A stretch of DNA of 64,000 nt from Coptis chinensis (lineage: Eukaryota; Streptophyta; Magnoliopsida; Ranunculales; Ranunculaceae), in NCBI GenBank assembly GCA_015680905.1, contig CM027377.1, positions 8,270,501 through 8,334,500 of the forward strand, given 5' to 3'. The position numbers were made by a program, and so were the translations under genes. Below are positions 5,329 to 55,489 of this stretch, piece by piece. Each line of letters starts with the position of its first letter. The first letter of the stretch is position 1. A model generated the notes under the pieces. The model was not told the DNA's origin. It saw only the letters and a list, made by a program, of their open reading frames with translations, and did not search any database.

Positions 5329-5330
5329 AT

Positions 5331-31236: not shown

Positions 31237-31758
31237 TATATGTACGACTACATTCTTACCCCTACAAACGGTCGTCGTTGGGTACCAAAGGTTGTACACT
31301 AGCACCGCCTATGAATGCGACCGACTCCCATTGCCCACAAAGCAGGCCTATTTTTATTGCCAACCAAGCTAGCCAACTAAACTGGCCTACTTTTATTGCC
31401 AACCAAGCTGGCCAACTAAACTGGCCTATTGTTATGGCCAACTAAGATGGCCGACTTTTTACTGCCCTCCTGTATGGCTAACATAATCAGCCCACTCATC
31501 CTAATATGGTAGATTTTAGCATATATACAAACAAGGCAATATATCTTTCTATAAAAATATATGAATAAGATTTTAAGGAGATAAGCCACCTATAAATATC
31601 TCATTTTCATTCCCAAAAGAACTACGTTCATTTGAGAGACTTCATTCCAGATAACAATTTAGATACGTAGGCATCCATTGAACGTACAGTCTCAAAAATT
31701 CTACAACAATCTCCCTAACAAGATTTTTAGTGTGTTCGGGTGAGTTCTTACCCAAACA
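31237..31758 (+). repeat. 5' LTR of the Tat-clade element
   Basis: Same length as 49826-50347. Contains a tandem pair of about 40 bp (TTTTATTGCCAACCAAGCT, twice). Ends ACCCAAACA. Confidence 0.85.
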
Positions 31759-31762
31759 AAAT

Positions 31763-31777
31763 TGGCGCCGCCTGTGG
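31763..31777 (+). promoter_or_regulatory. Primer-binding site of the Tat-clade element
   Basis: TGGCGCCGCCTGTGG, four bases after the LTR end, is a Gypsy-type primer-binding site beginning with the usual TGGCGCC. Confidence 0.65.
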
Positions 31778-33776
31778 TTCTTACTAACTGACTTTCTTCC
31801 ACAATTTGGTAATGGCGAAAACAACAAGATCTCAAGTGAGCAAAAATGCAAGATTACAACAAGAAGAAGAAAACAACTTACCTAATCTCGAAGTTCTGAT
31901 TAATGAGGCCGTGATGGATCAACCAACTGCCCCAGATCTACACGCTCCACCTTCAAAATTCCAAGTGCCACGGCAGCGCAGATCTAGATGTACGCGACTT
32001 CAGGCTCCAACAACTCATTCTCAAGATCTAGATGCCATAAATGCAAGCAAAGCGGATTCAGAGAATATGGAGATAGGAGATGAAGACGTGCCTTTAGAAG
32101 TGCTGTGTTAGAGATTCAGAAGAGAGAAAGAACATATCAACTACTTGCAGAAGCAACTAGACAAAGGGAAGCAAGTACTAAGGGATGACGCTGATGCTGC
32201 ATCTTCCACACCGGCAAGAGCCCCTAGATCTGGTGAAAACCGGAGTGTATTCAACCGACTACAATTTAATTACAGTAGATCCTATCCATTGGAGCCTATC
32301 CCTGAACATCATCAAAATCACTCAAGGTCAAGCAGACATTCATCCCATTCAAGAAGGCGATCCAAATCTTGAAATACCAACAACACTAAGCGTAGTAGTG
32401 GTCATAACACTAGGCAGAAAGAACAACAATACACGTCGTCAGGTAATCATCACACCTCTCATAACATGACAAGATCATTGAATGTTGATCATAGCGCATC
32501 AGAAAGGTGGACAACATCCACCATAAGACACAATGCTGGACGCCAAGATCAGGACCTCAGAGACGAATTGCAACATGACCTTAGACATGGCTTGAATGCA
32601 ACAAACCGATACAGAAAGGTTAACGAAGGTCAGTCCAGAATACGGCCACACTAAAGAAACGGCTCCCCAGTTCGACAGCCTAGCCCATTTTATCGGCACA
32701 AGTCTCGCAGCCCAAGGAACCAGCCAAATATAGAAGTAAGCAACGATTGGGGGCGACAACGCCGTGAGTTGCAACGTAGTGAAGTTACTCCTCAAGTCAA
32801 AAATCTAGAAGCTATAGGAGCACCATTCACGGAACAACAAATCAAAGACATTATCAAGAAAACAATGACCAATATGGGTGTCGCTGAAACACGATGGAAA
32901 GACCTTGCAGTGAACGAAGATGTCATCGAGAGATTTTCCCTAAAGATACAAAATGTAGAGCATCAGGAAGGATTCAAACAACCAGACCTTCCGACGTTCA
33001 ATGAAACAGGAGGCGACCTGAATGATCATGTTATGGAGTTTAAAAGCAGGCTAATTCTCTGGCGCACAGAGATGACCCTCTCTTATGCAAACTTTTTCCG
33101 TCTACACTAAAAGGAGAAGCTCTACGTTGGTTTTCCAGCTTGCCAGCTCGATCTATCGCGTCATTCCAGGAATTAGCAAGTTTACATCGGTTTAAGTATA
33201 ATTGGACATGTCCTAAGGATGTCAACATCTTGCTAAACACCAAGCAACAAAAGGATGAAGCACTGGCAAAGTTCGTAATTCGTTTCTGCCAGGTGCAAGC
33301 AGAGGTCGCCGATATCCCTGACGTAATGATTATTCATGCATTCAAAGAAGGAATCCATTTCAATGAAAACAGAATTTACAACTCCCTTGTACAGGACCCC
33401 CCATAATCAAAGTCCGATTTGTTTGCACGAACACATCAGTTCATTAACGTGGAGGAAGATGTTAGATCAAAAGCTTCCAGAGACAAAAACTTTCGGAGTT
33501 AAGACTCAAACGAAAGTAAAGGCAAACAGAAGAAAAACATATCGGAAGGGCAACAACATAAATCAGAATACATAAAGGTAAACACAGTTCGTGAGGAAAT
33601 GAAGCTTATCACTCCATTAAATGCCAAGTATGATGCGATATATGAGAAGATCAAGGGACGAAACTTACTTTTTCCTCCGCTGCCCTTACCTGAAAACACT
33701 AAGTCTAAATGTGACAAAAATCTTTGGTGTCACTTTCACAATGATTTCGGCCATGAAACAGAAGAGTGCAGATCCC

Positions 33777-35280
33777 TGATAAATGTAAAAATGATAGTTT
33801 ACCTACGAAATGAACGATAAAACTCAAAACGTAAGTAAAACTAAACGAAATTACGTGCCTAGTTTATCAAAGATTGTTCTACTCTCTATCTATTGAACAG
33901 ATATAGTGGAGTAGGAAGTTCGTTCCACTCCTAGTTCTTTCACATAGTAATGTTCTCTAAGTATAAATAATTTTAACTAAAGTCTAATAAGAGATTTACG
34001 AATTATAAACTACGATGCAACTACCCACAAGATACAACTAATTAACTACAGAATGCTGTGTTGATTCTATGATAAGGAATTAGGGGGGATTGATTCCACC
34101 TTAACTCAACTTAACTTATTAACGACGAATAGTCGTAATCTGAATTGAACTGCTATGCAAAACAATTGGTTCTTCCTAATACCTAATTACACATGACACT
34201 TCTACCAATTCATAACTAGCATGTGAACGATTAAACCCATTCTCATGGTGAATTAATCATTTCTAGAGTGGAATAGAAATTACGATGACTCTACGATAAT
34301 CGGAATCAAGCTTTCATCAAGACTTCTCAACCCCCTCTAATGGAGGTTTAGCCGAGAATCATTCCGCAACATTTCCATAAGAATCTAAACTAAACATAAT
34401 ATCAAGATTCTAAGTTTACTAATTTAACAAACAATAATTGAAATCTAATTAATAATTAAAAAATGATATCAACAAGAAATTAAACTAGATCTATAAATGT
34501 AATGACAGAAAACGAATTGAATAATAATAAACTATTTTATTAATCTAATCAAATGAATAACAATATTTTAAAGGTTTAATCTAAAACAAGGAATGAAAAT
34601 GAAACTAAACTTAATTAAAAACCATTAAAACTAGATCTAGAAGCTATTCTAATCTAACCTTAGCTACTATTACAAGGAACTAGTTTTCTAAATATCACTA
34701 GATGCCTTAAGAACTAAGCTTTTCTTTGTTTTTTATATGTTTCAGATCCAAAATCGTGCATGGGCTTGGAGCCATGTTTTGGGCCAGAGAATCAGGCCCA
34801 AAACCTAATTCTTTCAGTCTAAAAAGGCCTCTTCAGCTGGAGTTAGCTTTGACAAACTTTTCGTCCAATTCTACTCCTCTGATTGGGTCAAGGCTTAGAC
34901 CATTGGAAAGCTCTTTCCGAGCCGGTCGTTTTGAAGTAAGGTAGGCCCAATTCCGAGGTCTGAGTCCAAAGATATGGTCTTTGGAAGTTCTCACGACTTT
35001 TGTAATCGTTTTACCCGCGTGGACTTTGACTTTTCATCTTTTGACCGGGCTTTACTTTACTGAGGGCTTTGTCCTCTTGAAAATTGGCCTTTAATCACGA
35101 ACTCCTTAGCAACCGACCTTTGCTCCTTTATCTCGCTAAAGTGGCATATTTCGCACATAATGGACTTTGAAGCCCGAAATGCATAAAACACGAATCGATT
35201 AACTCTTACTTATTATTCACATAATTGGTCTAAAAGTACGATTGTTAAGGGGTTAAAACTACAGTTTTGGGCTCTTATCA
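33777..35280. mobile_element. Solo LTR inserted in the Tat-clade element
   Basis: The 1504-bp insertion begins TGATAA and ends TTATCA. It is flanked on both sides by ATCCC (33772-33776 and 35281-35285), an exact 5-bp duplication. It has no coding sequence of its own, so it is best read as a solo LTR of an unidentified LTR family. It interrupts the gag-protease region. Confidence 0.75.
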
Positions 35281-38200
35281 ATCCCTCAGGGGAAAAATAC
35301 AAAGGCTAGTCGATAAGGGACATTTAGACGCATTTTTGCTGTCAAAAACTGTGAAGCAAAATTTAGCAATGACTAGCCACAATGTCATACTAGCTGGTCA
35401 TGCCAAAATCAATGACATTTCACGAACAAGGCAAAAGTGTGAACAACAAGCCAAGTTTGGTTTCTTGCGTGAATTTTATCACGTCAATAACATTAATTTT
35501 GTTGAAGGAATTCGTTCAGAAACTACAGAGCCTAGTCCCCTATGTTTTAATGACAGAGATCTAATTGGCGTCCATCATCCTCAGCTAATTATGATGCTGT
35601 CGTCATCTTAGCTTTCATTGGATTATGGCAAGTTCAGCGCATCATGATAGATACTGGAAATTCTGTCAACGTCATTTTTGAAAGTTGCTACAAGAACATG
35701 CAGCTGTCAGAAAATTTAATTATTGCAGAAAATAATCTAATCATCGGGTTTGACGGAACAACAACAACCCCAGTAGGAAAAGTCTCTTTACCAGTCACGC
35801 TCATGGACAAGTCAATTGACATTGAATTCCTTATGATGAATTGCAAATCCCCTTACAATGCAATCCTTGGAAGGGACTGGCTCCACAGCATGGGCGCAGT
35901 AGTCTCTACCTTTCACCAGGCAGTAAAGTTCCCATCTCTTGACAAAATTTGTAAGGTGCGCGGCGACCAGATGGCTTCCCATAGCTGTCACGAAAAGGTC
36001 TTGGAGGATTATCGTCAATCTGATATGCGGGGAAATACAATTCTCAGTAATTCGCAAGAAGTGTCTAAATCAGAATCAGTCCCACACAGTATTTGCACTG
36101 CTAGTTCACGAAATGAAGGACTGCCGACTATAGACCGCCTTTTAGAAGTTCATATTGGGAATTTAGGTGGAGAAACAACTTTTATATCGGCAGAATTGAC
36201 GGAAAATGAACAAAAGGAAATGGTAGCACTCCTCAGAAAGAACAAAAAGATCTTTGCTTGGTCAGTCGAGCAAATGCCAGGAATTAGCCCATAAGTTGCA
36301 TGCCACACATTTGACATTGATCCTACCATCAAGCCAGTTCGACAGAAACCTAGGCGCATGGCCCCGAATAGAAAACTCAAAGTCAGAGAGGAAATTGATC
36401 GTTTACTTTCAACTAATTAAGTTTATACAACCAGTTTCATATCCACAGTGGTTGTCTAACGTGGTTGCAGTACCCAAGAAAGATGGGAAAATGAGAGTGT
36501 GCATTGATTTCACTAACCTTAACAAAGCTTGCCCGATTCATCCCTACCCTCTTCCACAAATATTGGAATTGGTGGATGCCATGTCTGGCTACCCACGATT
36601 ATCATTTATGGATGCATATTCGGGATACCACCAGATCCCACTAGCTGTTAAGGACCAAGAAGCAATTGCGTTCATAACTGACCAAGGGACTTTTTGTTAC
36701 CAAGTTATGCCTTTCGGTTTAAAAAACGCAGGGGCAAGCTACTTACCAGAGGATGATAGACACCAAATTCGGAGATATGTTGGGCAAGACAATGGAGGCT
36801 TATATTGATGACATGGTTGTAAAATCCAAGCACAGTGGAGATCACATCTTTGACTTGCAATTAGTTTTTGACAGAATTGATGAATTCAACATGCGGCTAA
36901 ATCCTTTGAAATGTGCTTTCGGACTAGTATCAGGAAAATTTCTAGGGTATCTGATGACTTGTCAAGGCATCGAAGCTAACCCAGAACAGATCTGATCCAT
37001 TCAAGTCATGCCCTCTCCAAAAATAAAAAAGGAGATTTAACAGCTCACAAGGCGCTTAGCAACACTAAATTGTTTCATCTCTAAGTACTCGGACTGATGC
37101 CGTCCTTTCTTTCAGACGTTAAAAGACTCAGCAAGGTGGAATGATGATTGTGAAAATGCCTTTCAATCAATCAAGAACTACCTGGTCTCACCACCAATCT
37201 TGGCTAGCCCAGTTATAGGGCAACCTATTGGAGCTTACTTGGCCGCTACAGATACTACAGTAAGTGCAATCCTGCTCATCGATGGAGAAGACGGTTGTCC
37301 GATCTTCTTCATTAGTAAGACACTAACGGGGGCGGAAACTAGATATTTGAGAATTGAAACAATCGCTCTAGCACTGGTTCATGCTGCCAGACGCCTCAAG
37401 CCGTATTTCCATGGAAGACTGGTCAAAGTATACATGGAATATCTTCTTCACAAAGTTTTCCGAAGTGCCCAAGAATCAAGTAGACTCGCGGAATGGGACA
37501 TCTACTTGAGTGCTTATAGCATCAATTTTGAACCTTGCGTTTTAGAAAAGGGTCATGCACTTGCATCCCTAATGACAGATTTCCTTATCGATGATTTCGT
37601 CCCCGAAATCAACCAAGACAACAATATATCTCTAGTGAAACGGCTACAGTTGGGGGCGAGGAAGCGCCGCCAAAGCATACTGACCCTTCATCCGATTCAT
37701 GGATCGTTTACACAGAAGGCTCACATAACAAATCCAGCTCTGGATTATGATGTGTTTTTATCAAGCCAGATAAATCAACCATTGAGTGCTCAATTCATTT
37801 CGGGTTCAAGGCCTCCAATAATGTAGTAGAATATGAAGCTGTCCTATATGCCATGCACACAGCTTTAAACTTAGGAGTTCAAAAATTACAAATTTTCACT
37901 GACTCACGGTTGGTGGCAGGGCAATTCTCTAGCTCTTTTGAAGCCCGAGACGATAAAATGGCAGCATACCTAGATCAAATTCACATACTTGCTCACCAGT
38001 TTGAAGCAATCCAGATTATACAGAGGCCTCAGAATGATGTTCAATATGCAGACGCCTTAGCATATCTATCTGCAGCAGTAGACATTGATGGACCAAGACA
38101 AGTTAATGTTGATTTCTAGCAAGACCCGAGCATTGACTTGTCCGTAGAACAACTCGCAGACATCTACATCAATCCATGTTGCTTTTTCAGTGTTGATATG

Positions 38201-39029
38201 GAACATCTACCATGCATCAAGCATTAATGTTGTCAATACGAGGAAAAGGAAGTACGATATTCCCCTACAAGACAAGCCCAACGAAGAAGCTTCCCAGAAA
38301 GATAGAAACATGATTCTTCAAAAAAATGATGCAGACTTCTTCCCTATACCTCCCAATAACGATCAAAGTGACGACGAAATTGTAGAAGAGCCCGACAGCT
38401 TCACTTACCCAAATGTCGTGGCAGATATCGATGATTGGCGCACACCATTTATTGCATTTCTACGCAATGGCATAGTCCTTTCAGAGCCCAAGATCGCAGA
38501 TAGCGTCAAAAGTGATGCATGGAAGTTTATACTCGTATCTTCATCCTTAGGAACTCTGTAATTGTACAGGAAAGGTAATTCATTGTCTCCTATACTGAGG
38601 TGTCTCACAACACAGGAAGGATTAGTTGTGCTACAAGAAATCCATGCAGGGATATGCGGTAATCACTTGGGTGGTCGAAGTTTGGCTCATAAGGCAATGA
38701 CGCAAGGATATTGGTGGCCTCATATGCAATTGGATGAGAAACACATTTCCCAGACATGTATCCCTTGTCAGAAACATTACCATATGGGTACTCTTCCAGC
38801 AACTGAGCTGCACTCGATTTTCTCACCATGGCCATTTGCAAAACGGGGTTTAGACATCATTGGCCCCTACCTAGAGCTCTAGGGAATGTTTGTTTTTTGC
38901 TCATAGCTACAGATTACTTTGCCAAGTGGGCAGAAGTACAACCCTTGGTGCACATATAAGCTTCGGATGTCAAACGGTTCCTATAGAAGGATATAATTTG
39001 CCGATTCGGTATCCCCGCTGAGTTAATAT

Positions 39030-39200
39030 CACTACACCATAATAGGATATTTGCAACACGCACCTTTTTTGATTTGCAACGGTTATTTACCGTTAGTAAA
39101 TTGCCAACGCTAAATAAGCGTTGGCAATGTTGTAAAGCGTTGCTTTATTTGAGTGAATTTCCGGAATTAATTGCTAACGCTTAAAAAGCGTTGGAGAAGT
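39030..39200. repeat. Left end and subterminal repeats of the CACTA element
   Basis: Terminal inverted repeat followed by several GCAACGG / CCAACGCTAAATAAGCGTTGG motifs. These subterminal motifs are where CACTA transposases usually bind. Confidence 0.75.
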
Positions 39201-40312
39201 GTTACAAACTTAAAAATTTCGAAAAAAAATCGAAATATAAAACATAACTTTTTTTTCTCTCTCTCTCTCTCTCTCACCGCCCCATTATTTTCGCACTCCT
39301 CAAAACCTAATTTTCAGATTCAGATTCAATCAAAGAAAGAAGAAGAAGAAGAAGAAAAAAAAACAAGGTAATAATCTTTCATTTTCTTTCTAGTTTTTTT
39401 CATTCCTTTCTTGATTTAACCACCGTTTCATTTTCTGTGTACTAGTTTACGTTTTTTTTTTACTATTAATAGAAACTCTCATGAAATCATCTCTTCGAGT
39501 TCCAGTACTAGTCTTCTTGTGTTTATAAACAGTACTAGTTTGTGATGATGAGTTGTTTTTGGGTTGGGTTTTTCTTTCTACTTTGATTTGCAAATGTAAA
39601 AAGGAATTTAATCATTCTGAGGAAGGGTTTATTCAAATTTGAAGAGGGTTCTTATAATTTTAATTGTCTAAAAGTTAGAGGATTTTTCCCTACTGAATCT
39701 TGTGTGAACTATGAAGTCGTTGCTGAAGTTCATCTCTGCTTAGCTATTTTCTCTTCCTCCCTTTTTTCTTTGTCTTTGCCTTTGCTTTTGTTATTTTTTT
39801 TTTTTTTCAAAAGGAAACATATTGTACCTGCTTTCCAGTTTGAAATCCACGTGGCTGTGCTGTATTTGCGTGTTACACTCAGAGTGTAACACGTTACTGT
39901 AGAACAACTCTTAAGTTTAATCATACAACACGACGGTTTGGAGGGAAATCTTGTTGTAAATAAAGGCCATAGTCATAAGGTAGAGGATATATAATGTAAG
40001 GAGGGCCTGAACAAAGCAAATTTTCCAGATGTCTCAGTGCAAATTAATTACAAGGAAAAAAGTTATTTATGGTTTTGCATTAGCACAGCATTTGTCTTCA
40101 TGCTTGTTTCCTATCTCTGTAACTAAGTAAGAAGACACAGCGTAAAATAAAACTCTATCACCATATTATGTCTTGTTGATATCTTAAAAATAGTAATGCA
40201 CTTTAAGTTTCACAAAAAAGGTTACAAAGAGTTTCTTTCAGGCACTTAATATCTGCATACATTTCCATCACATTCTCTTCACTCCATACATATACCCAAT
40301 CCAAATCTGAAA
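39201..40312 (+). other. 5' region carried with the heat shock protein fragment
   Basis: Holds a CT microsatellite (about 39254-39276), AG-rich tracts and AT-rich sequence. The last part probably is the original leader and promoter of the captured heat shock gene. No perfect heat shock element (alternating GAA and TTC blocks) was seen. Confidence 0.35.
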
Positions 40313-40675
40313 ATGTCGATCATTCCAAGCATCTTTGGTGGCCGACGAAGCAACATCTTCGACCCAATCTCTCTAGACATATGGGATCCATTCCAAGACT
40401 TCCTACTTTCTCCATTCCGCTCTGAGTTCTCAAATGAAACAACCCAATTCGCGAACACTCGTATTGACTGGAAGGAAACACCAGAAGGTCATGTGTTCAA
40501 AGCTGATCTTCCAGGACTGAAAAAGGAAGAAGTGAAAGTGGAAGTTGAAGAAGGGAGGGTTCTTCAGATTAGTGGAGAAAGAAGCAAAGAGAAGGAAGAA
40601 AAGAATGACAAATGGCATCGCGTGGAACGTAGCAGTGGACAGTTTTTAAGGCGATTTAGTAAAAAGAAAAATGTA
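40313..40675 (+). pseudogene. Class I small heat shock protein gene, 5' part, captured
   Basis: The ATG at 40313 starts [18 protein letters not shown], the standard N-terminus of plant cytosolic class I small heat shock proteins (about 17-18 kDa chaperones that hold unfolding proteins). [10 protein letters not shown], the start of the alpha-crystallin domain ([20 protein letters not shown], then [20 protein letters not shown]) and [16 protein letters not shown] follow. The match stops there. The second half of the alpha-crystallin domain and the C-terminal tail are missing, and the frame runs on into unrelated sequence to 40750. About 120 of the usual 150-160 residues remain, uninterrupted. 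It lies inside the CACTA element. Confidence 0.85.
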
Positions 40676-43487
40676 CCGTGTTCGGTTCTCTTTGATTTGC
40701 TTGTTTGTTTCTCATGTACTATTGTTACTTTTCCATGTTTTCAAATGTAAAAGATGGTTCTCTTGTAGCTCTGAAATGAACGACTGTTTTACCCACTTGC
40801 AAAACTTGATTTACTGCCATGGATCTGTTTTTAATAATATGTATGTTCTGTTTATGTAATATTATCTGTAAATCATGTGTGTGAAGTGTGTTGTTGTTCA
40901 TACTTGTAACATGGCTGTTATATGTTTGATTTTGTGACCTTTACTGTAAATTGATGGCTGTCTCGTAGCTCTGCTTTGTATGAACTTGAGTTGTTACCCA
41001 TTACCATCATTCATATATATACTGTTGGCCTGTTTATCAATAATCATTTGGGAATGTTCTGTTTGTTCACTTTTGAAATTTGTCTAGTACATTGAGAATG
41101 TGGAATGTGGTTTGCATAGTGTCCTCTCACCACAATATTTTCGACCAGAAGGTCATCAGTGATTGTGCAAAAGCTGCTTAGATATTGAGCGACTCTTGTT
41201 GGTAAAAGCAGTAAACAATGCAGATAATAGCAAACCCCTAAGTAAGACGTGATCATCTATAAGGGGCAGGGGGGGCATAAATGGTGTGCTAGTGGTTGTT
41301 TTAGTTAGTTTAGTTAGTGTCTTAGAAATGGATGTTTAGCTAGTGGTTGTTTTAGTTAGTGTCCACAGCCCATATTTTGTATCAAGTTGCAGCTTTACTT
41401 GGTATCTAATTCCTCTTCTTTGATCCGGTGGTTGGTGTAAAATTGAACATGGTGGTTTGCTACTAGTTGTGGCCTTCTGGTTTTGATATGATAATTTCTC
41501 TCATGGTGCTCGAATATGTAGATTAGGTTTGATTTGTTGGCATTTATTCTAGTATGTTATTTAGAATACTAGCAGGAAATCTGTATATGCCTTTGACTTG
41601 CTAGGCTTCTCTCCTGATGACTGTCTCTCTTAACAGTTTCTGCTCACTTTTCTAGAATCTGCCAAGAAGAAAGGATTTGATCAGGTCAGTGTTGGCATTA
41701 CATTGCTTTATTTGAATTACAATGTGGTCTGCTCACTTAAATGAATATTATACTGATATTTCACTCTATATAAGACCCGAGCAAGTATCACACTTGAACC
41801 ACAGCGATAAGGCTTTTGCGCACACAATTGAGGGCTGTACTGAGAGTAAAAATAACTGAAAAAAAACATGAATTAATTAGAGAGCATGCGACACATTTAA
41901 TTGGCAATAATTTATGTTGCGTGCAACTCCATCTAGAATGTGGCATGATGCTCATACCAAACAGTTCTGTGATGAGTATTTTATTATTCTTGGTATCTTT
42001 CTAGTAATTGTTCCTAGTGGATCTCTGAGGTAATTTATGTGTGCACAGAGGGTTGTATATGAGCTTATATGAGCTTTGTTCTTGATTTTTGGTTTGCAAG
42101 TCAGTTAAGGTATTATCCACAGTTGCACTTTCAGTTTGCTGAATATTGTGTCATATCAGTTCAACCATTTATAGAGGTCACTTGTGAGATTGTAAGAAAT
42201 CCTCCCAGCTAAATATGTCCGGCTAAGCACAGTACGAGTGTATGATTAGAATTCCTAGTTGTGGAATCACACAGCTCTTTGGGACCCAGCTTGTCCTTCA
42301 AGATTGCCATTTGAATCTTCCGTTTTATACTGTGTCTGTATAGATTTTAATTCCACTCCCTTATCGTTGGTATTAGCAGATCCCAGTCTCTCACTGTCTT
42401 CATATTCTCTCAAACTTCTCTTCAAACTGGGATGCACGATCTAGAGTCTGGCAAATGAATTGGTAACTGAGCCACACTCACACTCACACACGGAGAAGAA
42501 GGAAATAACCAGACCAGAACCTTAGTGGTTGTAAAAACTTAGGCTGATCATTGTTGATGGTAATAGCAGCTCCCACAGTCTCTCACCGTCTTGATATTCT
42601 CTCAAAGTTCTCTTCAATCTGGGATGTGCAATCTGGATTCTGGCAAATAAATTGGTAACTGAGACATAGATGCCTGCACACACACTCAAAGGAGGAAAAA
42701 ATAAACCAGAACCTTAGTGGTTGTAAAAACTTACGATGATTTGATCTATCGGTGTTATTTTTTATTTTATTTTATTTTTTTGGCATAAGTTATCCTGTGG
42801 TCAGAGAAAATAGAAAACCAAAATGAAGCAAGACTTTCTGGTAGTTTAATATCACTTTTACTTTTTAAGATTGAAACTAGATTTGAAGCCTGCGGCCATA
42901 AATCAACCTGTACAATCCTCTCTCTCTCTGTAGCACTGATCCTCTGTGAAACTGTCGTATCTATAGTTTTTTGGTGACGTGGCAGCTCACTGAAACTGCA
43001 AGCAACCCAAAATGCCAAATACTCAGTTGGTGGGCTTCTATGAGTTTGAAGTTTGAACTATCTTTATAACAGAAGTTAAACCAGGAGTATTTAGCACTGT
43101 CTTCTGATTTTCAAATGGGTTCTCTGTAGGAAGATGATAAGACATCTACAAATATGTTACTTTTTCTTTTTAAAATGGACTTGCTCAGATATCAAAATAT
43201 CGTAAACTGCTTAAAATTGATAGAAAAAAAATATGATTAAGAGAAATGCTTAAGTTGCGAAGATGGATCTATATCATCTATTCATGATTGTTATTTATGT
43301 GTGTTATAGTTTCTTGTCTACTCGATAGTCTTGTATGCTGTATTGTATGCCATTATCTAGTTCTGAGAATACCGTATTCCTACTCCTATTAGGAAAGTCT
43401 TTTCTAGTACTCTAGTAGTAATGCTTGCGATGGTTTGCTCTTATATATTGTCATTATAATGCTTTAGTGTCATACTCGTGATTGCAG
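40676..43487. other. CACTA interior between the two captured genes
   Basis: AT-rich intron-like or intergenic DNA with no sure gene. A possible 30-bp exon (TTTCTAG before 41663; AATCTGCCAAGAAGAAAGG; donor CAG|GTCAGTG) is too short to identify. A tandem duplication is listed separately. Confidence 0.35.
42374..42740. repeat. Tandem duplication of about 190 bp inside the CACTA element
   Basis: Two imperfect copies with period about 190 bp. TAGCAGATCCCAGTCTCTCA at 42374 recurs as TAGCAGCTCCCACAGTCTC at 42564, and both copies end near CCTTAGTGGTTGTAAAAAC. Confidence 0.7.
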
Positions 43488-44944
43488 TGATGCATCTTTT
43501 GGTTATCCTGGGGGTCCATAATTGTTGACGAATTTGAACTTTGGTATAGACCTTGACAGCCGCATAGCAAATAAGGATATTACCCCAATTATCTTGTACT
43601 CCATTTTCTTCGTTATCATTGTGAAATAAAATCTGGCATTTGGAGTTGTTACCTTTTTTCGTTTAACTGATATCCAACTTATTTTCTTTCCCTTTTGTCT
43701 AAGTTATAGTAATGAATTTGGCTTACACTTTACAATGGTTGGTCCTAATGGCATTGGCAAGTCAACCATTATCAAACTGATTTCTGGGGAACTTCAACCT
43801 AGTTCTGTAACACTTTTCCGTTTTCGCGATGGTGCGCGTTTGTTTCCTCTGTCCTGGCTATTGTTTTTTGACCTTTCGGCATGAATACCATTAATTTTAG
43901 ATTTCTAGGATAATTTGAAATTTTCTCGATTAATGCAGGCCAGGCTCTATTTAAAGATACAAATGCCTTTAATTTATTTTTTGTTACCGATAACAGAAAA
44001 AGTTTTGCAATTTAAGTTAAATTCTCTTTGGTTGGACTGGACTGGACACATGAGGTTTCGATGCCATAGAGGTGAGATAGCCTACATAGAGCTTAATTGG
44101 GTAACCTGTGGGGTTTGGGGCTTTTGGATTGTATACTGCTATTTAACAAAAGCTATCTCGCAATCTTTCTCAAGATAATGAAAATATAAAACCTTGATAA
44201 TGATACCATGAGAATCTTGTTCTAGGAGCAACGTTTTAGAAAACCATAGTCTTGTTTTCTCAACAACCTTGTTGAATAGATCAATCATAAAGTTATGTAT
44301 CATGCATTAGTGCATTACTAATAGCACTGAGTAGTACAATTCAGGGCCCTCTTTGTGGATTTTGTAATTTTGGTAGATAACTCCGGTGAGAGCTAGAACA
44401 TACTTTTTCCAATAAATTCAATGGGGGATATGAAAGCATCCTATCAATTTGAAAAATTAAAGAATAAGAAGTCTAGGGTGTCTAATATAAGTGACCAGGA
44501 AGAAAATAAAGAGAACTGAGTATGGATGTTCCCTTAAATGTTTAGTGGGTCTACTAATAAAGTGGGTGCTAGGTTTTGGTTTTGTATTGGTGGGGATTAT
44601 TAGTAAAGTCTTGTTAGAAATAAGGTAGGTGTCAGTATCACTACCCTAAATGAAATCATGGGTTCAACTTAACATTTGGAAAGGTGTATTTCTGGTTTTA
44701 TTGCTCTGAAGTTCGAATTTTGAAGTTAGAATCTGCTAGGTTGAATTGAGTTTATCCTGTTTTCTGATTAGCTGATACATTCATGATAAACAACTGCTCG
44801 AATGTTCTGTTGAACCTATATTATATGTACTGAGTTCTTGCTTTGATTTATACTCCAGGTGGTCAGAAAAGTAGAGTTGCATTTGCAGAGATAGCATTCT
44901 AAAAACCCCACATCATTCTGCTTGATGAGCCCTCAATCCATCTT
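43488..44944 (+). pseudogene. ABCF-type (GCN20-like) ATPase gene fragment, captured
   Basis: ABCF proteins are soluble double-ATPase proteins that act on ribosomes. Three exon pieces of one ATPase domain are present in order: 43488-43569 (SDASFGYPGGP, then LNFGIDLDSRIA), about 43710-43831 with the Walker A motif GPNGIGKST (43741-43767) and LISGELQPSS, and 44859-44944 with GGQKSRVAFAEIAF, the Walker B IILLDEPS, and a donor CTT|GTAAGT. The SGGQ signature region and the order match the second ATPase half of plant ABCF1-like proteins. Stops occur in the first exon (after GYPGGP) and the last (after AEIAF), the D-loop asparagine of SNHL is isoleucine, and exons between Walker A and the signature are missing. 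Introns are retained, so the copy came through DNA, not mRNA. Confidence 0.85.
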
Positions 44945-46102
44945 GTAAGTCTATCCTGAACTTGAGATATAGTATACTTGCTTATCCATATTTATGTGCC
45001 ATTCATATCATATTTTTTTTAACTGATAAAGAATAATAATAAAATGAGAAGCTCTATAATGCTTAAACTCTGTGACTCAACCTAATGACAAATTGCCTTG
45101 GATGTCTTGAATTTTATGGCTTTTAAGTTTGTCAGTCCTTTTTAATTTGTTTGTTTCTTTTATGGCTTAAAATTTGTCACTCTTATTCTTATTTTAATTT
45201 TAATCCTTTGTAAAACTGAAAATATCGGTGGTAAATCAACATCCTTTCCATTATGAAGAACCTCTTATTTTCAAATAAACTGTGTAGAAGGCTCACATTA
45301 CTGACAATGGACTGCTCTGGAGTCTGGACATGTTACCGATTAAGTAGTAGGAAGGGCTCAGTCCTGGTAGCAGTTGGAATTCTTGAATTTTGTAGTTTCT
45401 TAGTCTCATGATTTAGATAATATTTCTTCATGGTGCCACTCACTGTCAGCATGAGATCTTTCCGTGCTCATTTGTTATCTCCGTGAAACTTTTTATTTGT
45501 CTTATTTTTTTGGTACATTCAGTGGCGGAGCTAGGGGGGCCCAAGGTACACCCTGGCGTACCCTCAACTCGACCAACCCTGGCGTACCCTCAACTCGACC
45601 AAAATAAAAATAAATAGTTATGAGTTAATTACAAAAGGGCGCAAGTGAAGAAACAAAAAAACTAGAGTCCATCATGCAGCTGTTTGTGGAACGCTGGGAA
45701 GAAACAAAAAAACTAGAGTCCCTTTCCCGTGCAATACTTGAATTTTTCAGCTTAAATTTTCCAATAAATTTTTCAGACTTCTCTTCAGTGTTAATAATAG
45801 TGTACTGTATAATTTTTCTGCTGTCTGTTTCCTATTAACACCCAAAAAAGGAGTAGGGGCATGGTGGAGAGAAATATGTATGCGAGAAATATGTATGCTG
45901 TTCTTACATTGGTTCTGGGGTCATGTGCAGGTCGCAGAGGTGCACAGAGGTGGACTGCATGATGTAATAACACCGAGATATCACCATCCATTATTTGCCA
46001 AAACAAAAGTTTCCGCCGGGATGGACTGAGCCCCACTTCACCTTCACAAAATGGTATTCTGCTAGTATTGTTCTTTGTGCCTAACACAAGATTGTATACC
46101 TG

Positions 46103-46134
<32 letters not shown>

Positions 46135-47535
46135 CGTTTTAGGGATTCTGGAGAGTTCCGAGCTAGAGCAACCTCAAACCAAAACAACGATGACGGCATG
46201 ATGAGGTTTTCTACACTGAACTATACCTGTTGTTTCATCTATAATGTGATGTGGAAATATATATATATATATACATAGAATGTAATATTATTATTGTTTC
46301 TTTTGTTTCAAGATCTGTACTTTAAGTGTTGAATATGATCCATCATTTTTTTTGTTACCTTGGTACTTATGTTCTAGTATATATATATTGTTTTTTTCAG
46401 GTTAACATGTTACTATAAATGCTTGGTACAATCGACTAGTAAACTGGAAGGGTCATTGGTTGAGCTGATGTACTTTGATACAGGATTCAGATAGATTACT
46501 GGAATCTTAATGTCCAGTTTCAAGTGGAGAAGTTATTCACTAAACTAGGGACACAATGATTGGGAAACCACTATTGTTAACGTATTTGTACTTACTAGTC
46601 TACATATTGCTTTCATCGGGAGTTATTTTGTACAATAAGGTAAACCATCTTTATTGTTTTCATTGTTGGGCTTCTTGTTGTGATTGTTTATGTATTGCTG
46701 CGTTTTGATTAATTAATGAAATGTAGTTCAATAGAATGCAAATTGGTTGATATTCTTTTCAATCCTTGAATGAACACGAAAACCATCACCAATTATATAT
46801 CAAACTTCGACGTGAATTCCATATGTTTATTTAAGTGTATTCCTTTTCAGCAAATAATTTATTGGATTAGTCGTTTAGTCAGTATCTCAGTTCTATACCT
46901 ATTATGTTTGTCTTTCCTTATATTTGTTTCTCAAATTTTGGATTCATCTTTTTTTTCCAATTACAAATTTGGCTTCATTAGATAGTTTACGGTTTGGCTT
47001 AATATTTTCTTTTAGCCTTGTCATATTTGTGCAATGTAAGATTATAACCATCTAGTTACCAAATTTGCGATTGGGGAAGGATGCATTTGTCTTTGTGTAG
47101 GGTGTTTAGGAAAAGTGACCGGGGCGAAGAATGGGGAGCATTATGGTGCGCTTTTGATTGAGGAAGAGTGGGATGATAATAATGTTGTGTTTCGAAAAGT
47201 GAATTTGATCATGATTGCACTTTGGATGGATTTGATGAATATGTTCAAGCCACAAGCGTTTGGATTTTGTTTATTTTTGAATGTGTTTTGTTTTCTACAT
47301 TTTGTTGTCAAGTGGTATGTCTGTATGAGATCTTATTATTTGGGGTTATTTGGTGGTTCAGGGTATATAGCTTTGTGTATACAGTTGTAGTGATGATGTT
47401 GTGATGAATTTGATTTGAACTGTAAGTGGAAATAGGTGTTGTGATAGCAGTTTGATCACAAAACTTTATTACTCCTAGGGAATTGATATTAATGTGTTAT
47501 ACCACCAAATTGGTTTAGCTGGTCTCGCTACAAAA
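44945..47535. other. CACTA interior, right part
   Basis: No gene is recognised. It includes a CT repeat (46102-46129), a TATATA run (about 46258-46274), and a 91-codon frame at 47115-47390 (starting MTGAKNGEHYGALLIEEEW, with a hydrophobic second half) that shows no family and probably is chance. A hAT-like end motif at about 45520 lacks a partner. Confidence 0.35.
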
Positions 47536-48012
47536 ATGAGATTTTTTTTTTTTTATTAGCAACCCATCAGCAACGGTTCATAACCGTTACAAACGAATTT
47601 TAAATTATTTTTTTTAAATTAACTAACAAATTTGCAACGCTTTATAACCGTTACAAACGAATTTTAAATTATTTTTTTAAAATTAACTAACAACTTTGCA
47701 ACGGTTAAAAACCGTTGGTAAAAATTTTAACAAATTACCAACGCTTAAAAAGCGTTTGTGAAATTTCTGTTTGCAACGCTTTGAATTTCTGTTTGCAACG
47801 CTTTTTAAGCGTTGGAAATTTTTGTTTGCAACGCTTTGAATTTCTGTTTGCAACGCTTTTTAAGCGTTGGAAATTTTTATTTGCAACGCTTTTTAAGCGT
47901 TGCAAATATTTCCAACACTTTATCGACGCCATATTTGCAACGCTTAAAAAGCGTTGCAAAAATTATTAGCAACGCTTTTTTGCCGTTGCAAATAGCCTGT
48001 TATGGTGTAGTG
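47536..48012. repeat. Right subterminal repeats and end of the CACTA element
   Basis: Dense array of TTGCAACGCTTTTTAAGCGTTG and related motifs in both orientations, ending in the terminal inverted repeat. The many inverted pairs could fold into hairpins. Confidence 0.85.
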
Positions 48013-48904
48013 TATCAAACAATGGAAAGCAATTTGATGCATAAGAAATACACAGGCTTTGTGCTAGTCTCCATATTCGACACAATTTTCTGCACCCTAT
48101 CACCCCTAGGCAAATGGGAAAACCGAAGCGACAAATAAATCTATCTTAGCAATCCTCAAACGTCGACTCGAACAGGCTAAAAGCAAATGAACAAGAGAGT
48201 TACCAGCCGTTCTATGGGCGTATAGAACAACTCCAAAGCGCTCGACAGGAATGTCACCATTTAACCTGGCTTATGGAGCAGAAGCAGTATTACCCACGGA
48301 AATTTTTGCTGGGACGACCCGCACCGTCCGCAGCCTTAAACTATGGCCATAATGATGAATTACTAGCTCATTCAAAAGCCAATCTAGATGAAGTGCGTGA
48401 GGAAAGTATTGCTCGTCTCCTCCATTACCAAGTCGCGATGAATAAGTAATATGACCAGAAGCTTCGTTTGAAAGTTTTTCATCCGGGCGACTGGGTCTTG
48501 TGTAGACAATCAAAGATCATTAATGTAGGAAAACTAGGCGAAAATTGGGAAGGACCTCTTATCATTGACCATGCTGCTTCTAAGGGATCATATTTTCTTC
48601 GCACAATTTCAGGAACCCCTCTCCCGAAACCATGGAATGCTCTCCATCTTAGGCGTTTTTATCGCTAACCCTGCTTCCCATTAGCAAAAATTAGTAGTGT
48701 GGGACGACAATTCCTTGGAACGGATTCTTGACGTAATCTTGTTTTGTTTTTCAAATTGTCAATCATCAATAAAATGCATTATTTCATATTTCGTTATTTT
48801 CATTCAATTAGTTAGTAAAAAATAATATATATCAATTACTCAATTACCATTCTTAAAGACAAGCAATTGATATGAATGATAAACTATACAAAACATATAC
48901 AAAT

Positions 48905-49605
48905 TCAAAAGTCATGGAGTTTGCGTTTGCAACACCTCTCTCCATGCACCAAAAAGTCATGGAGTTTGCGTTTTCAATATTTCTCTCAATGCAACAAAAA
49001 ACCGTGGAGTTTGCGTTTTCAACACCTCTCTCCATGCATAAAAAAAGTCGTAGAGTTTGCATTTTCAATACCTCTCTCCATGCACCAAAAAGTTATAGAG
49101 TTTGCATTTTCAACACCTCTCTCCATGCACCAAAAAGTCATAGAGTTTGCGTTTTCAACACCTCTCTCCATGCACCAAAAAGCCATGGAGTTTGCGTTTT
49201 CAACACCTCTCCATGCACCAAAAAAGTCGTGGAGTTTGCGTTTTTAACACCTCTCTCCACGCACCAAAAAGTCATAGAGTTTGCATTTTCAACACCTCTC
49301 TCCATTCACCAAAAAGTAGTGGAGTTTGCGTTTTCAACACCTCTCTCCATGCACCAAAAAGTTGTGGAGTTTGCGTTTTCAACACCTCTTTCCATGCACT
49401 AAAAAGTCGTGGAGTTTGTATTTTCAATACCTCTCTCCATGCACAAAAAATAAAATAAAATCGTGGAGTTTGCATTTTCAACACCTCTCCATACACCAAA
49501 AAGTCACAGAATTTACGTTCGCCATACCTTACTCTGCGCATCACCAAGTAATGGAGTTTGCGTTTGCAACACCTCTCTCCGGGCACCTAAAAATTCGGTA
49601 GTTTG
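48905..49605 (+). repeat. Minisatellite in the 3' region of the Tat-clade element
   Basis: About 16 imperfect tandem units of roughly 45 bp, each with GTGGAGTTTGCGTTTTCAAC, then ACCTCTCTCCATGCACC and a short A run. It lies between the integrase part and the polypurine tract. Long open frames here arise because the unit length is a multiple of three; they are not genes. Confidence 0.9.
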
Positions 49606-49804
49606 CGTTGGCAAAACCTCACAAACAAACAAAAAAATAAAAATAATAATAATAAAAAAAATAAAAATAAAAAATAAAAAAATAAAAATCAATCGGTGCC
49701 GTCAATTTCTAGTGTTAGTTTATTTTTGCGCGTCTTTTCGAGTACCTCAATAGTATGTCACTTCCTTTTTATTCTTTGCCGTAAGAAATCAATTTCATCC
49801 AACA

Positions 49805-49825
49805 AAGAGGGGGCGGTGGGGGTGG
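49805..49825 (+). promoter_or_regulatory. Polypurine tract of the Tat-clade element
   Basis: A G-rich purine tract (AAGAGGGGGCGGTGGGGG) directly before the right LTR start at 49826, where plus-strand DNA synthesis is primed in LTR elements. Confidence 0.6.
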
Positions 49826-50347
49826 TGTATGTACGACTACATTCTTACCCCTACAAACGGGTGTCATTGGGTCCCAAAGATTGCACATTGCCACCGCCTA
49901 CGAATGCGACCGACTCGCATTGCCCACTAAGCAGGCCTATTTTTATTGCCAATCGAGCTAGCCAACTAAACTGGCCTACTTTTATTGCCAACCAAGCTGG
50001 CTAACTAAACTGGCCTATTGTTATGGCCAACTAAGCTGGTCGACTTTTTACTGCCCTTTTGTATGGCTAATATAATCGGCCCACTCATCCTGATATGGTA
50101 GATTTTGGCATATATACAAACAACGCAAGATATCTTTCTATAAAAAGATCTAAATAAGATTTTAAAGAGATAAACCACCTATAAATATCTCATTTTCATT
50201 CCCAAAAGAACTACGATCATTTGAGAGCCTTGATTCCAGATAACAATTTGGATACATAGGTAGCCATTGAAGGTACAGTCTCAACAATTCTACAACAATC
50301 TCCCTAACAAGATTGTTAGTGTGTTCGGGTGAGTTCTTACCCAAACA
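49826..50347 (+). repeat. 3' LTR of the Tat-clade element
   Basis: Starts TGTATGTACGACTACATTC and ends ACCCAAACA. It pairs with 31237-31758 with roughly 6-7% difference by eye. Confidence 0.85.
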
Positions 50348-50352
50348 AACTC

Positions 50353-50500
50353 TATCCTTTCTATTCAACTATGTACTCTTCCATTTAGTTAGATAGATAG
50401 GTAGAGAGAATCTCTCAACTTAGTTGTAATATCCTATTTAAATACCTCTAAATCAATAAAGAAAAACATCTTTGAGGAACTTAATCTATGTGTTTTCACA
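50353..50500 (+). repeat. 3' LTR of Copia element 2, right part
   Basis: Continues the LTR match after the Gypsy element and ends TGTTTTCACA, as the 5' LTR does. AACTC (50348-50352) is the right copy of the insertion duplication. Confidence 0.75.
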
Positions 50501-50551
50501 TAGATAGTAACATAATCCAAATAAACTGATTGGGCACATAAGTTAACTTAC

Positions 50552-51259
50552 ATGAAACAAGAAGTTGTCACCACTGACTCACTGAGCCTCCCCACAATCT
50601 TAAGACGAAGAAAGCGAAAGTTATATCTCAAAGTCATACGGTATGAGGATCCATAGACCTTGTAGCCTTTCTTGGTGTTACTACATGCTATTCTCCATAC
50701 CTAAAATCGATCAGGCCTATAATGTTCAACCAAAGATAGAGAAGCCCCCAAGTTTATTAGATATAATTGATTGGGAAACATGATAAATGAATGAGGGAGG
50801 AAGGAAACTTGATAGTACGAAACTTCTCAGTATAGAGGGTAAATGTAAATAGTCCTTCAGAGCTGGGGTGACTTTCTGCATCAATGAGCCAATGAAGTAA
50901 CCCATCAAGAAACACTGGCTTTTTATTAGAGCAGCATATAAAACAACACTTCTAGCTCTCTCCATGGCGCTTCACCTAATGTAATAATCTTACCTTTCAT
51001 ATATGTTTGGGAATTATCATCAAAGGAGAGCTTAAAAAGTCAAACAACTTTATACTTCTCAGCTATATGATCGAAACCAAAACCAATAGTGGTTCCTCTT
51101 TTTCCAGCTTCAAATAGTTCAATCTCTGCTTTAGGCAGTTCCAGGCTTTCTTTCGTCAATAGATTATAGATGAAGAGTGTTTCCACTTTAGAACTCGAAG
51201 AAGAAACACATTGCAAGCAATTACAAGAAGACTTCTTATGTTGGGGATCCACTTCAATT
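50552..51259 (-). pseudogene. F-box gene 3, middle part (decayed)
   Basis: Minus-strand remnants of the F-box-associated domain: IYNLLTKESLELPKAE, IGFGFDHIAEKYKVV, MKGKIITLGEAPWRELEV, LINLGASLSLVEHYR and SNTKKGYKVYGSS. The exon ends TGTTTCAT|GTAAGTT at 50552/50551, exactly where F-box genes 1 and 2 have their intron donor. Several stops and frame changes have accumulated. On the other side it is cut at 51259 by Copia element 3. It aligns with both sister genes over its full length. Confidence 0.8.
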
Positions 51260-51964
51260 TGTTGGAGTTATCCCTCACATGAGGAGAGGAGAGAAATCAG
51301 TTCAGCTTGTGTGGAAAAGCAAGAGCGTGCTTCATACCCTCCACAAGCTATTCTGAAGTGTGCCCCGCGCTAAAGTACCTCGACATCGTCCAAGGCAAGA
51401 GCGCGCCCCGCACCCTCCACAGGCAAATCTGAAGTGCGCCATGCGCTCAAGCGCCTGGACATTGTCCAAGGCAAGAGCGCGCCCCACGCCCATGCCTAAT
51501 TTTGGCAGGATTCTATTTTGGTGGAACCGCGAGTTTTGCATTATATGTTGGGGTTTTTGACAAAACCTAACACACATGAGACAACACAGAAGTCAGAGAA
51601 AACCCAATCTTGAAAGCTATCAAGATTGAGAGATAACCTTTACAGAGATATAACCTTGTAAAGAGAGAGGAGTGATCTAGTAAGGTGAGAGACTGCAAGG
51701 AGTGATTGTAATCTTCCTTCCCACTTTATAAAAGGATTAGTTCTTGTGGAAGTAGGCACCATTGGCCGAACCACGACATATCTTTGTGTTGTGGTTTGCT
51801 TTTACTGCTTTACATTATTATCTGTTGTTAATAATTGTTTAGCGAGTTGGGCATGTTAGTTTGGTTGTAGGAAATATTTAGATTGTTGATTGGAGTGGTT
51901 ATTGTTCAAATATAAGTAATCTGTGTAGTGGGGAATCGATTGGTATCGGTGTTTAACCCAAACA
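51260..51964 (+). repeat. 5' LTR of Copia element 3
   Basis: Starts TGTTGGAGTTATCCCTC and ends AACCCAAACA. The first part carries GC-rich near-repeats (AAGAGCGCGCCCCGC). Confidence 0.8.
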
Positions 51965-51966
51965 AG

Positions 51967-51979
51967 TGGTATCGGAGCC
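51967..51979 (+). promoter_or_regulatory. Primer-binding site of Copia element 3
   Basis: TGGTATCGGAGCC, two bases after the LTR, a near match to the initiator tRNA-Met site used by plant Copia elements. Confidence 0.75.
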
Positions 51980-54900
51980 AAGTTAGATTTGCCTAGGGTG
52001 TTATCCAAATCTTGGTCGGAAGGTGTTTGACAAAACTCCTGAGAGAAGATTTAAGTTTAAATAATTTGTAGAGATGGACAATTCCGTGAACACTCGCATG
52101 ACGAGTATGAATAGGAAGAACTACACCAATTGGAAAGCCAAGATGGAAGACTTGCTTTATTGCAAGGACTTGACACAACCCATTAAGAATGGATGAGAAA
52201 GACCGAAAACGGTTGCTGCGGCTGAGTGTAGCAAGCTTGACAGAAAAGCAATTGGGTACATTCGACAGTAGATTGACGACAGTGTCTTTCACCATGTCTC
52301 CCAAGAGACTACAACTTTTGGCTTGTGGAAGAAACTTGAAGACCTCTATGAGAGGAAGTCGGGTGGAAACAAAGTACTGGTCGTTAAGAAGTTTGCCAAC
52401 ACGAAGTATCAAGAAGGTTCTTCAATGTCTGAGGATCTTAACAAAGTACAGAATACCATCAATCAGATACATTTGATGAAGATTAATTTGGGAGATGAAG
52501 TTGAGGCTTTGTTTCTATTAGGCTCTCTACCCAAAAGTTGAGAGACGTTAGCAGTCTCTCTATACGAAGCAGCCAAGGATGGAATCGTTACCATGGAGAT
52601 GGCTACCGCGTCTTTGTTGAATAAGGAGATTAGAAAGAGTTCAAAAGGCAGCTCCTCTCACTCAGAGATCCTTGTCACAGAGAAACGGGGAAGAGGTAGA
52701 AACAGGAAACCGTCTCATTCTAGAGGTGATGACATAAGTAAATCTAGGGGTGAAGCTAGAACTCCTAAGGCAGAGAGACAATATTACTATTGTGCCACCA
52801 AGGGTCACTTCAGATATGACTGCAGAACACTGAAGAGGGATGAGAAGAATAACTGTGTACATGAAGATATGGTGCAGAGGAATAGAAACACAGGCATAGA
52901 TACTACCGCACTAGTTGACGACTTAGTGGGAATTGTATCAGATTGTGGTGTGTGCTATCTTAGTACCTCATGCCAGGATACAGAGTGGGTGATAGATATA
53001 GGAGCATCCTATCAAGTCACACCGCACATGGAATTCTTCACTACCTACAGCTGTGGTGAATATGGTGAAGTGAAGATGGGTAACAGTGGTGTCTCGAAGA
53101 TTATAGGCATTGGAGATGTTCATGTAGAAGCCAATGTCGGCTACACCTTGACACTCAAGGATGTAAGACATGTCCCTGACATTCGGCTAAGCCTAATTTC
53201 GGCTAGGAAGTTAGATGACGATGGCTTTGTAAACTCGTTTAGTAACATGGCATAGAAACTGAGCAGAGGTTCCATTGTAGCAGCCAGAGGGAAGAAAACT
53301 TGCTCTCTTTACAAAACACAAGCTAGTTTGTGTAAAGCATAAGTGAATGTGGTAGAGGAAGAAGCTTCCTCCGAACTGTGGCACAAGAGACTGTGTCATA
53401 TGGGCGTAAAAGGGATGGAAGTTCTTGCTAAGCAAAAGGCCTTGCCAGACATCAAAAGTACACATTTAAATACATGTACTCACTGTTTGGTAGGAAAACA
53501 ACACAGGGTGTCTTTCCAAAGATTCCCGTTTCACAGCAAGGACAATGTCCTTGAATTAGTGCACACAGACTTATGTGGTCTTATAAAAGTTAAGTCCCAC
53601 GGGGGAGCTTTATACTTTGTGACCTTTATTGATGATGCATCAAGAAAGGTATGGGTATATAGTCTGAAGACCACGGATGAAGTACTTGGCATGTTTGAGA
53701 AATTCCATAACATGGTGGAAAGAGAGACAGGAAAGTTGTTGAAGTGTATTCGCTTAGATAATGGGGGTGAGTATATTGGGCCGTTTGAAGAGTATTACCA
53801 GAGTCATGAGATTCGTCATGAGCAGACCGTTCCCAAGACACCGTAACATAATGGAATAGCAGAGAGAATGAACCGTACCATTGTAGAGAGGATGAGATGC
53901 ATGCTGTCTCACTCTAAGCTACCTAGAACCTACTGGGTAGAAGCAATGCGTACAGCCGTGCATGTGATCAACCTATCGCTGTCAAAGCCTCTGAATAGTG
54001 ATTATCCATAAAGAGTATGGTCAGGTAGAGATGTTGATTATGGATACTTAATGGTATTTGGGTGCAGGGCATTTGTGCATATTCCAAAGGATGAGAGATC
54101 CAAGCTTGATGGCAAAGCCAATCAGTGCATTTTTCTGGGTTATGGAGATGAAAAGTTTGGTTACAAACTCTATGATTCGATTAACAAGAAGGTAATCCGA
54201 AGTCGAGATGTTGTGTTCTTGGAAGACCAAACCATAGCAGACTTTGAGGAGGGTGAGAAGCTACAGGCTTTCACTAATGATCTTGTTGATTTAGAACCAG
54301 AAGTTCCTACTGTGAAACGTACAGAAGGCATTGAGAATGCAGAGAACCATGAGTTTGAAGCTCATGATGAGAATCATATTGCTCATGATGGGATAGAACC
54401 TATTGGTATAGAGGATGCAGATGAAGTGTATGAACCACCACCAGAGCAAACAAAAGTGCATCCTCCTGAGGCACCAGCAGATAGGGCAAGGAGGTCAGAC
54501 AGAGAGAGACTAGCTTCAACCAGGTATCCACCACATACGTATGTTTTACTATCTGATGGTGGAGAACCTATGTACTATCAAGAAGCACTTGAAGGTACAG
54601 GCAAAAAGAAGTGGTTGAAGGGCATGCATGATGAGATGGATTCTTTGCATAAGAATCACACTTATGAGTTAGTTGAGAAACCGCAAGGACAAAAAATTCT
54701 CAAAAATAAGTGGATCTACAAGGTTAAGCATGAGGAGAACAATCCACACCCAAGGCACAAAGCTCGCCTTGTTGTGAAGGGATTTGGTCAAAGTAAAGGT
54801 ATTGACTTTGATGAGATTTTCTCTCCTGTAGTGAAGATGACTTCTATCCGGGTGGTATTGGGTATGACCGCAAGTATGAACCTAGAGGTTGAGCAGCTAG

Positions 54901-55489
54901 ATGTTAAGACATCTTTTCTTCATGGAGACCTTGAAGAAGATGTCTATATAGACCAGCCAGAGGGGTTTGAGGTCAAAGGCAAGGAGCACCTAATATGCAA
55001 GCTGATAAAGAGCTTGTATGGGTTGAAAGCTAACCGAGGCGTGGGTACATAAAGTTTGATTCCTTTATGGCGAAGCAAGGATACAAGAAGTTTGCTTCCG
55101 ATCATTGTGTGTTTGTTCAGAGATTTCCAGATGGAAATTTCATAATGCTTTTGTTGTATGTGGATGATATGTTGATAGTTTGCCTAAACATTAACAAGAT
55201 ATCCAAACTGAAGAAAGACTTGAGTACGTAAGTCCTTTGAGATGAAGGATTTGGGTCAAGCAAAGCAGATACTTGGGATGCGGATCACTTGTGACAGAAA
55301 GAGTAGGAAGTTGTGGCTTTCTTAAGAAAGCTACATTGAGAAGGTGTTGAAGAGATTCAACATGAATTAAGCGAAGCTAGTCAGTTGTCCGCTTGGTGGC
55401 CAGTTCCGCATGACCAAAGAGATGTGTCCAAAGGGTGAGCATGAGTAGAGTCAGATGGAAAAGATTCCTTATACATCCGCAGTGGGTAG

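Follow-up and report, generated by a model that had tools for sequence, protein, structure and literature searches.

A probable Pack-CACTA element with pieces of small heat shock protein and ABCF genes, nested in retrotransposons of Coptis chinensis

Introduction

The CACTA (En/Spm) superfamily is characterised by terminal inverted repeats (TIRs) that begin with CACTA, a 3-bp target site duplication (TSD) and subterminal repeats, both direct and inverted, that extend over a few hundred base pairs; autonomous members have a transposase gene of their own, and Pack-CACTA elements lack a transposase and enclose coding DNA of the host between their CACTA ends. In soybean, the CACTA element Tgm-Express1 is reported to lie in an F3H intron and to pack fragments of five genes into 5.7 kb; chimeric transcripts were shown, in which splicing adds these fragments to the host gene as further exons (PMC1947982). 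Among the Pack-TYPE elements of maize, many contain two or more loci, Pack-CACTA elements the most, while in rice multi-locus elements are reported to be significant solely for Pack-Mariners; the frequency of multi-locus elements thus differs by species (PMC8903248). In Chenopodium, CACTA elements are reported with host gene fragments towards their 5′ side, upstream of an element coding domain (PMC8978399).

The stretch of Coptis chinensis DNA analysed here (the window, 64,000 nucleotides) contains PPR, PsbP and F-box genes together with LTR retrotransposons and is thus nuclear plant DNA. It includes what is very probably a non-autonomous, gene-carrying CACTA element of the Pack-CACTA type, with pieces of two unrelated gene families, namely a class I small heat shock protein (sHSP) gene and an ABCF ATPase gene. 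Like Tgm-Express1, it combines CACTA ends with exon and intron pieces of unrelated host genes; unlike Tgm-Express1 with its five fragments in an F3H intron, it carries two families in 9.0 kb within a decayed gypsy element and is known from sequence alone (PMC1947982). It resembles Pack-CACTA elements, which in maize are frequently multi-locus, in its CACTA ends, its TSD, its host coding DNA and its lack of a transposase, and it differs from the Arabidopsis Pack-CACTA elements, for which CACTACAA is reported, in a TIR that starts with CACTACACCA (PMC8903248). The likeness to the Chenopodium elements lies in host gene fragments in the 5′ region; there a coding domain of the element is reported to follow, and here no transposase domain was detected (PMC8978399). 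The initial annotation had considered two gene families in one CACTA element uncommon, a judgement that gives way before the published pattern of five fragments in soybean and frequent multi-locus elements in maize, a frequency that is reported to vary by species. That a single CACTA element may contain several unrelated genes is established, and the element described here is one more clear example.

The element, its ends and its site

The element spans 39030-48012 (8,983 bp), the extent that the initial annotation had assigned to it; its features are collected in Table 1. An inverted-repeat comparison bore out the matched CACTA ends of about 28 bp with two mismatches, and the TAT on both sides, that had been described: the TIRs are 28 bp long, are complementary at 26 of 28 positions (93%) and both start with CACTACACCA. 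In 60 shuffles of the two 100-nt termini by single bases, even the closest inverted match of 28 bp had 10 or more mismatches every time, against the two observed.

Table 1. Features of the CACTA element and of its host retrotransposon (positions in the window; a point marks features given without strand).
Feature	Position	Strand	Basis
Ty3/gypsy retrotransposon hosting the CACTA element in its integrase	31239..50349	+	
Target site duplication TAT, left copy	39027..39029	.	sequence
5′ terminal inverted repeat CACTACACCATAATAGGATATTTGCAAC	39030..39057	+	inverted-repeat comparison
5′ subterminal repeats, CAACG[CG] palindromic units	39058..39200	.	repeat and motif searches
TATA-like box immediately inward of the 5′ subterminal repeats, candidate promoter	39236..39242	+	motif; function inferred
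CT-rich leader-exon-like stretch without ATG, start assumed	39268..39367	+	inferred
Putative leader before the sHSP start codon, after AG acceptor, no upstream ATG	40242..40312	+	inferred
First 116 codons of class I small heat shock protein gene, open frame	40313..40660	+	Pfam, PDB
29 further codons without clear sHSP likeness, then stop	40661..40750	+	frame, PDB alignments
ABCF3-like exon, first part, SDASFGYPGGP*LLTNLNFGIDLDSRIA, one in-frame stop; AG acceptor 43486-43487	43488..43569	+	
165-nt interruption within the first ABCF3-like exon	43570..43734	+	sequence, probe gap
ABCF3-like exon, second part with P-loop (MVGPNGIGKSTIIKLISGELQPSS)	43735..43821	+	Pfam, PDB, probe
ABCF3-like exon, presumed ABC signature and Walker B region, one in-frame stop	44859..44944	+	probe
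3′ subterminal repeats	47536..47984	.	repeat and motif searches
3′ terminal inverted repeat CACTACACCATAACAGGCTATTTGCAAC	47985..48012	-	inverted-repeat comparison
Target site duplication TAT, right copy	48013..48015	.	sequence

The empty site, built from 120 nt of each flank with one TAT kept, restores an integrase-like frame, KDIICRFGIPAELISNNGKQFDA, that is open for 23 codons over the junction, between two stops, and that we take, from its motif, to belong to a Ty3/gypsy integrase core; the stops further out on both sides are put down to the decay of the gypsy element. The TAT on both sides and this frame across the empty site assign both ends to one element, and the objection raised beforehand, that the ends might derive from different elements, is contradicted by the TIR and subterminal motif that they have in common as well as by the TSD and the integrase frame.

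The side nearer the sHSP piece is named 5′ here on the grounds that the gene pieces appear to read away from it. Dense subterminal repeats had been claimed and are present, direct as well as inverted, over a few hundred base pairs: on either strand, CAACG[CG] occurs 5 times in 39030-39229 and 17 times in 47536-48012 (TIR included), that is, 22 times in the ends, against none in the 8,306 nt between them (39230-47535); the remaining 55 kb of the window hold 20. With up to 3 mismatches, the palindrome GCAACGCTTWWWAAGCGTTG has 20 matches in the window, against an expectation of 0.03, and all of them lie within the two ends of the element. The TIR pattern had 0 matches in viral_contigs, and a full-text literature search with CACTACACCA gave no transposon paper, by title, among the matches listed.

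A second CACTA end lies in the region 1-967 of the window and runs on the minus strand from 967 (CACTACACCAGAATTTGTGATTTGCAACGGTC...), with CACTACACCA at 951-967; its first 10 bp are common to both ends of the element studied here, and at the same offset it has ATTTGCAACGG in common with the 3′ end and ATTTGCAAC with the 5′ end. Five of the eight CGACGG motifs of the window fall in this region. Since CACTAC is absent from the plus strand of 1-960, the other end of this second element may lie outside the window.

The gypsy element into which the CACTA element is inserted has LTRs at 31239-31760 and 49828-50349 that are 92.3% identical over 522 nt; in Pfam, the left flank of the CACTA element matches Integrase_H2C2 (E 8.3e-8), with RVT_1 and RNase H further upstream. 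It is in turn inserted into a copia element, within the 3′ LTR, as 26560-26770 matches 31168-31239 plus 50349-50501, and CTCTA is found at both of its borders. The region 26560-50501 is thus nested threefold, and the order of insertion was copia, then gypsy, then CACTA, given that the CACTA element lies within the gypsy element and the latter within the copia LTR. The gypsy insertion is about 3.1 or 5.8 million years old, for substitution rates per site per year of 1.3e-8 or 7e-9, respectively; this age is an upper bound for the CACTA insertion at this site and not for the capture of the genes.

Several other structures were seen in the window. A tandem array of units of about 45 bp, partly readable as an open frame, lies at 48847-49617 between the integrase and the 3′ LTR of the gypsy element. 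Within 50540-57931, a copy of an F-box gene is apparently split, with 50540-51230 and 57612-57931 matching the F-box genes located near 20 and 24 kb; the halves are separated by a copia-like element (LTR-like ends 51259-51964 and 56848-57594, 87.6% alike). A further copia-like element, on the minus strand, occupies 1233-5765, with LTR-like ends at 1233-1668 and 5330-5765 that are 90.4% alike.

Contents of the element

All 73 stop-to-stop frames of at least 45 aa in the element were compared with Pfam; 20 families were matched at E <=0.09, none of them a transposase, and no transposase is among the 25 families listed of the 37 matched at E <=0.5. The strong families were HSP20 (E 8.5e-15) and ABC_tran (E 1.7e-6); the others are P-loop families or matches at chance level (E >=0.0024). 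With no transposase gene of its own in frames of at least 45 aa, the element is classed as non-autonomous and, with HSP20 and ABC_tran coding DNA between CACTA ends, falls among the Pack-CACTA elements.

Alignment with Pfam HSP20 (E 8.5e-15, profile positions 1-62 of 102) and with PDB entries bears out the earlier description of the first part of a class I sHSP gene, open and with its start codon: codons 1-116 contain no stop, within a frame that runs over 40313-40750. The closest structures are HSP16.9B (1gme_A, E 6.1e-44) and an 18.1 kDa class I protein (5ds2, E 4.6e-35), against merely E 1.3e-13 for a 17.1 kDa class II protein (5ds1). With the full frame as query, alignments to plant class I and II proteins reach codons 117-123, and one weak match extends to codon 128. 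As the Pfam match ends at position 62 of 102, the piece is without the C-terminus and the last part of the alpha-crystallin domain, and for this reason its truncated product would not be expected to be a working chaperone. In viral_contigs and genome_contigs, 10 and 69 stretches matched a pattern from this piece, with 0 relatives by tblastn; no report of an sHSP piece within a CACTA element was found in the literature among the matches listed, as judged by titles and the starts of abstracts, which says little.

The ABCF gene had been described as present with several exons and with introns that keep usable splice sites. ABCF exons are indeed there, but just two are recognisable, with two in-frame stops in all (one per exon) and with the first exon broken by the 165-nt interruption. 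Between the two exons, some 55 codons (564-619 of an ABCF3 probe) are missing. AG precedes 43488 and 44859, and GTAAGT follows 44944; no splice donor was established after the first exon (43821). The intron-like sequence, the AG before both exons and the GTAAGT after the second support, as far as such signals can be read, capture at the level of DNA.

The piece (43690-43881) matches Pfam ABC_tran at E 9.5e-7 and, in PDB, YbiT (3.8e-10) and ARB1 (2.5e-9) best, both presumably ABCF proteins, followed by RNase L inhibitor proteins (1.1e-8). As the last are so close behind, the subfamily label rests on an Arabidopsis ABCF3 probe, which matches 43486-43821 (E 7.3e-12, with the gap) and 44846-44944 (E 3.5e-9). 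Further ABCF3 probes were each compared with 60 shuffled probes. The middle probe scored at best 37 in 43800-44860, on the wrong strand (95% point of the shuffles 34, maximum 42), and 37 over the whole element, against a 95% point of 43, and is not taken as found; the upstream and downstream probes, for the neighbouring exons, scored below the median of the shuffles and are likewise not taken as found. Such a piece is unable to encode a working ATPase domain.

A third captured gene was considered for the frames 45880-46026, 45971-46081 and 47091-47387 and was rejected, as none of them matched any Pfam family. In PDB, frame 45880-46026 had 12 weak matches, mostly to designed ankyrin repeat proteins (best E 0.79), and frame 47091-47387 had none. 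The last of these is part of an open frame of 116 codons, 47040-47387, near the 3′ end of the element, which could represent either an exon specific to the element or another captured piece, the third. Also seen in the element were a 29-nt exon-like stretch between AG and GT (41656-41684), one frame of which reads ESAKKKGFDQ, and a duplicated block at 42368-42740 whose copies of about 180-190 nt are 81% alike.

Candidate promoter and leader

The weak signals of the 5′ end, a TATA-like box and a leader-exon-like stretch, might drive the sHSP piece. The box is one of three TATA-like sites in 39030-40320; the CT-rich stretch ends at a GT donor (39368) that ties for the best of 65 GT sites, and the AG acceptor at 40241, 71 nt before the sHSP ATG, comes seventh among 50 when scored crudely. 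Stretches of 171 nt without ATG make up 19% in the leader region and 8.6% across the element. A transcript would start at the promoter in the 5′ end of the element itself, splicing of 39367 to 40242 would join the leader, and translation would then begin at the sHSP ATG.

A heat-responsive fused transcript had been thought conceivable, and this idea is weakened: no two-unit heat shock element (GAAnnTTC or TTCnnGAA, perfect elements) occurs in 39230-40400, so that heat control of the sHSP piece was rejected and heat induction would not be expected, the heat-responsive promoter having probably not been taken along. The site of the element, a decayed gypsy element rather than a gene, does not offer the setting of Tgm-Express1; since fragments of the latter are spliced into transcripts of a host gene, some chimeric RNA from the present element would, by analogy, be possible in principle. 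That the element's own promoter and a spliced leader yield a heat-independent truncated sHSP, kept open by selection and acting on full-length sHSPs or aiding escape from silencing, is barely credible.

Origin of the element

In the favoured course of events, sHSP DNA comprising the leader and the start of the coding region would have been enclosed between CACTA ends at an earlier site, and ABCF3 DNA, exons together with introns, would have been enclosed likewise, possibly as a separate event; the transposase of an autonomous relative would then have acted on the ends and moved the unit to its present site after the gypsy element had landed. As only a single copy is at hand, we infer capture and mobility rather than report them as observed. 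In a published model of capture, summarised in PMC13317346 and PMC8903248, neighbouring Pack-CACTA copies fuse with terminal deletions. Leftover internal CACTA ends, as such a tandem fusion might leave, are not visible as CAACG[CG] motifs in 39230-47535, and a recent fusion is therefore not supported.

There is a slim chance that the gene pieces entered the CACTA element later, by way of other nested transposons or as filler DNA. The interruption of the ABCF exon and the duplicated block are foreign-looking parts inside the element; a CAGTGGCGGAGCTAGG stretch at 45520, which we take to resemble the end of small plant transposons, points the same way, as do some inverted pairs, among them one that brackets the sHSP piece (39904-39927 and 42239-42262) and another that brackets both gene pieces (39389-39413 and 45642-45666). 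These pairs come from a repeat comparison in which the matches listed comprised 20 direct families of 24 and 25 inverted pairs of 43. With a length of 24-25 nt and an imperfect match of 79-80%, however, they are short and may well be due to chance. In the window, no partner of the CAGTGGCGG stretch was found at up to 3 mismatches, and the single orientation of the gene pieces argues against later nested insertion.

Two further scenarios are compatible with the Pack-CACTA reading and concern how the element came by its contents. It is possible, if doubtful, that an autonomous CACTA element was internally deleted and its coding part mostly replaced, 39240-40241 and 46100-47500 being remnants of its own genes; the leader-exon-like stretch and the open frame 47091-47387, which has no Pfam family, could then be element-specific exons, but a transposase is missing from the families matched by the 73 frames. 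It is unlikely that a pseudogene cluster of the host had brought the two pieces together beforehand and that they were taken up as one block. Both lie in plus orientation about 2.8 kb apart, as such an uptake would have it, and no data separate one capture from two; their decay differs, however, the ABCF piece having 2 stops in about 85 codons, an interruption and missing codons against 0 stops in the 116 sHSP codons, a difference that by stops alone is not significant (probability 0.18).

Significance

The picture of how gene-carrying CACTA elements work is unchanged by this element, which, read as a Pack-CACTA element, adds to it a clean case of the shuffling of gene pieces by CACTA elements in which the order of insertion (copia, gypsy, CACTA) is clear. 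If it is transcribed, it would provide a natural case in which to test if a CACTA promoter is able to take over the start of a host gene.
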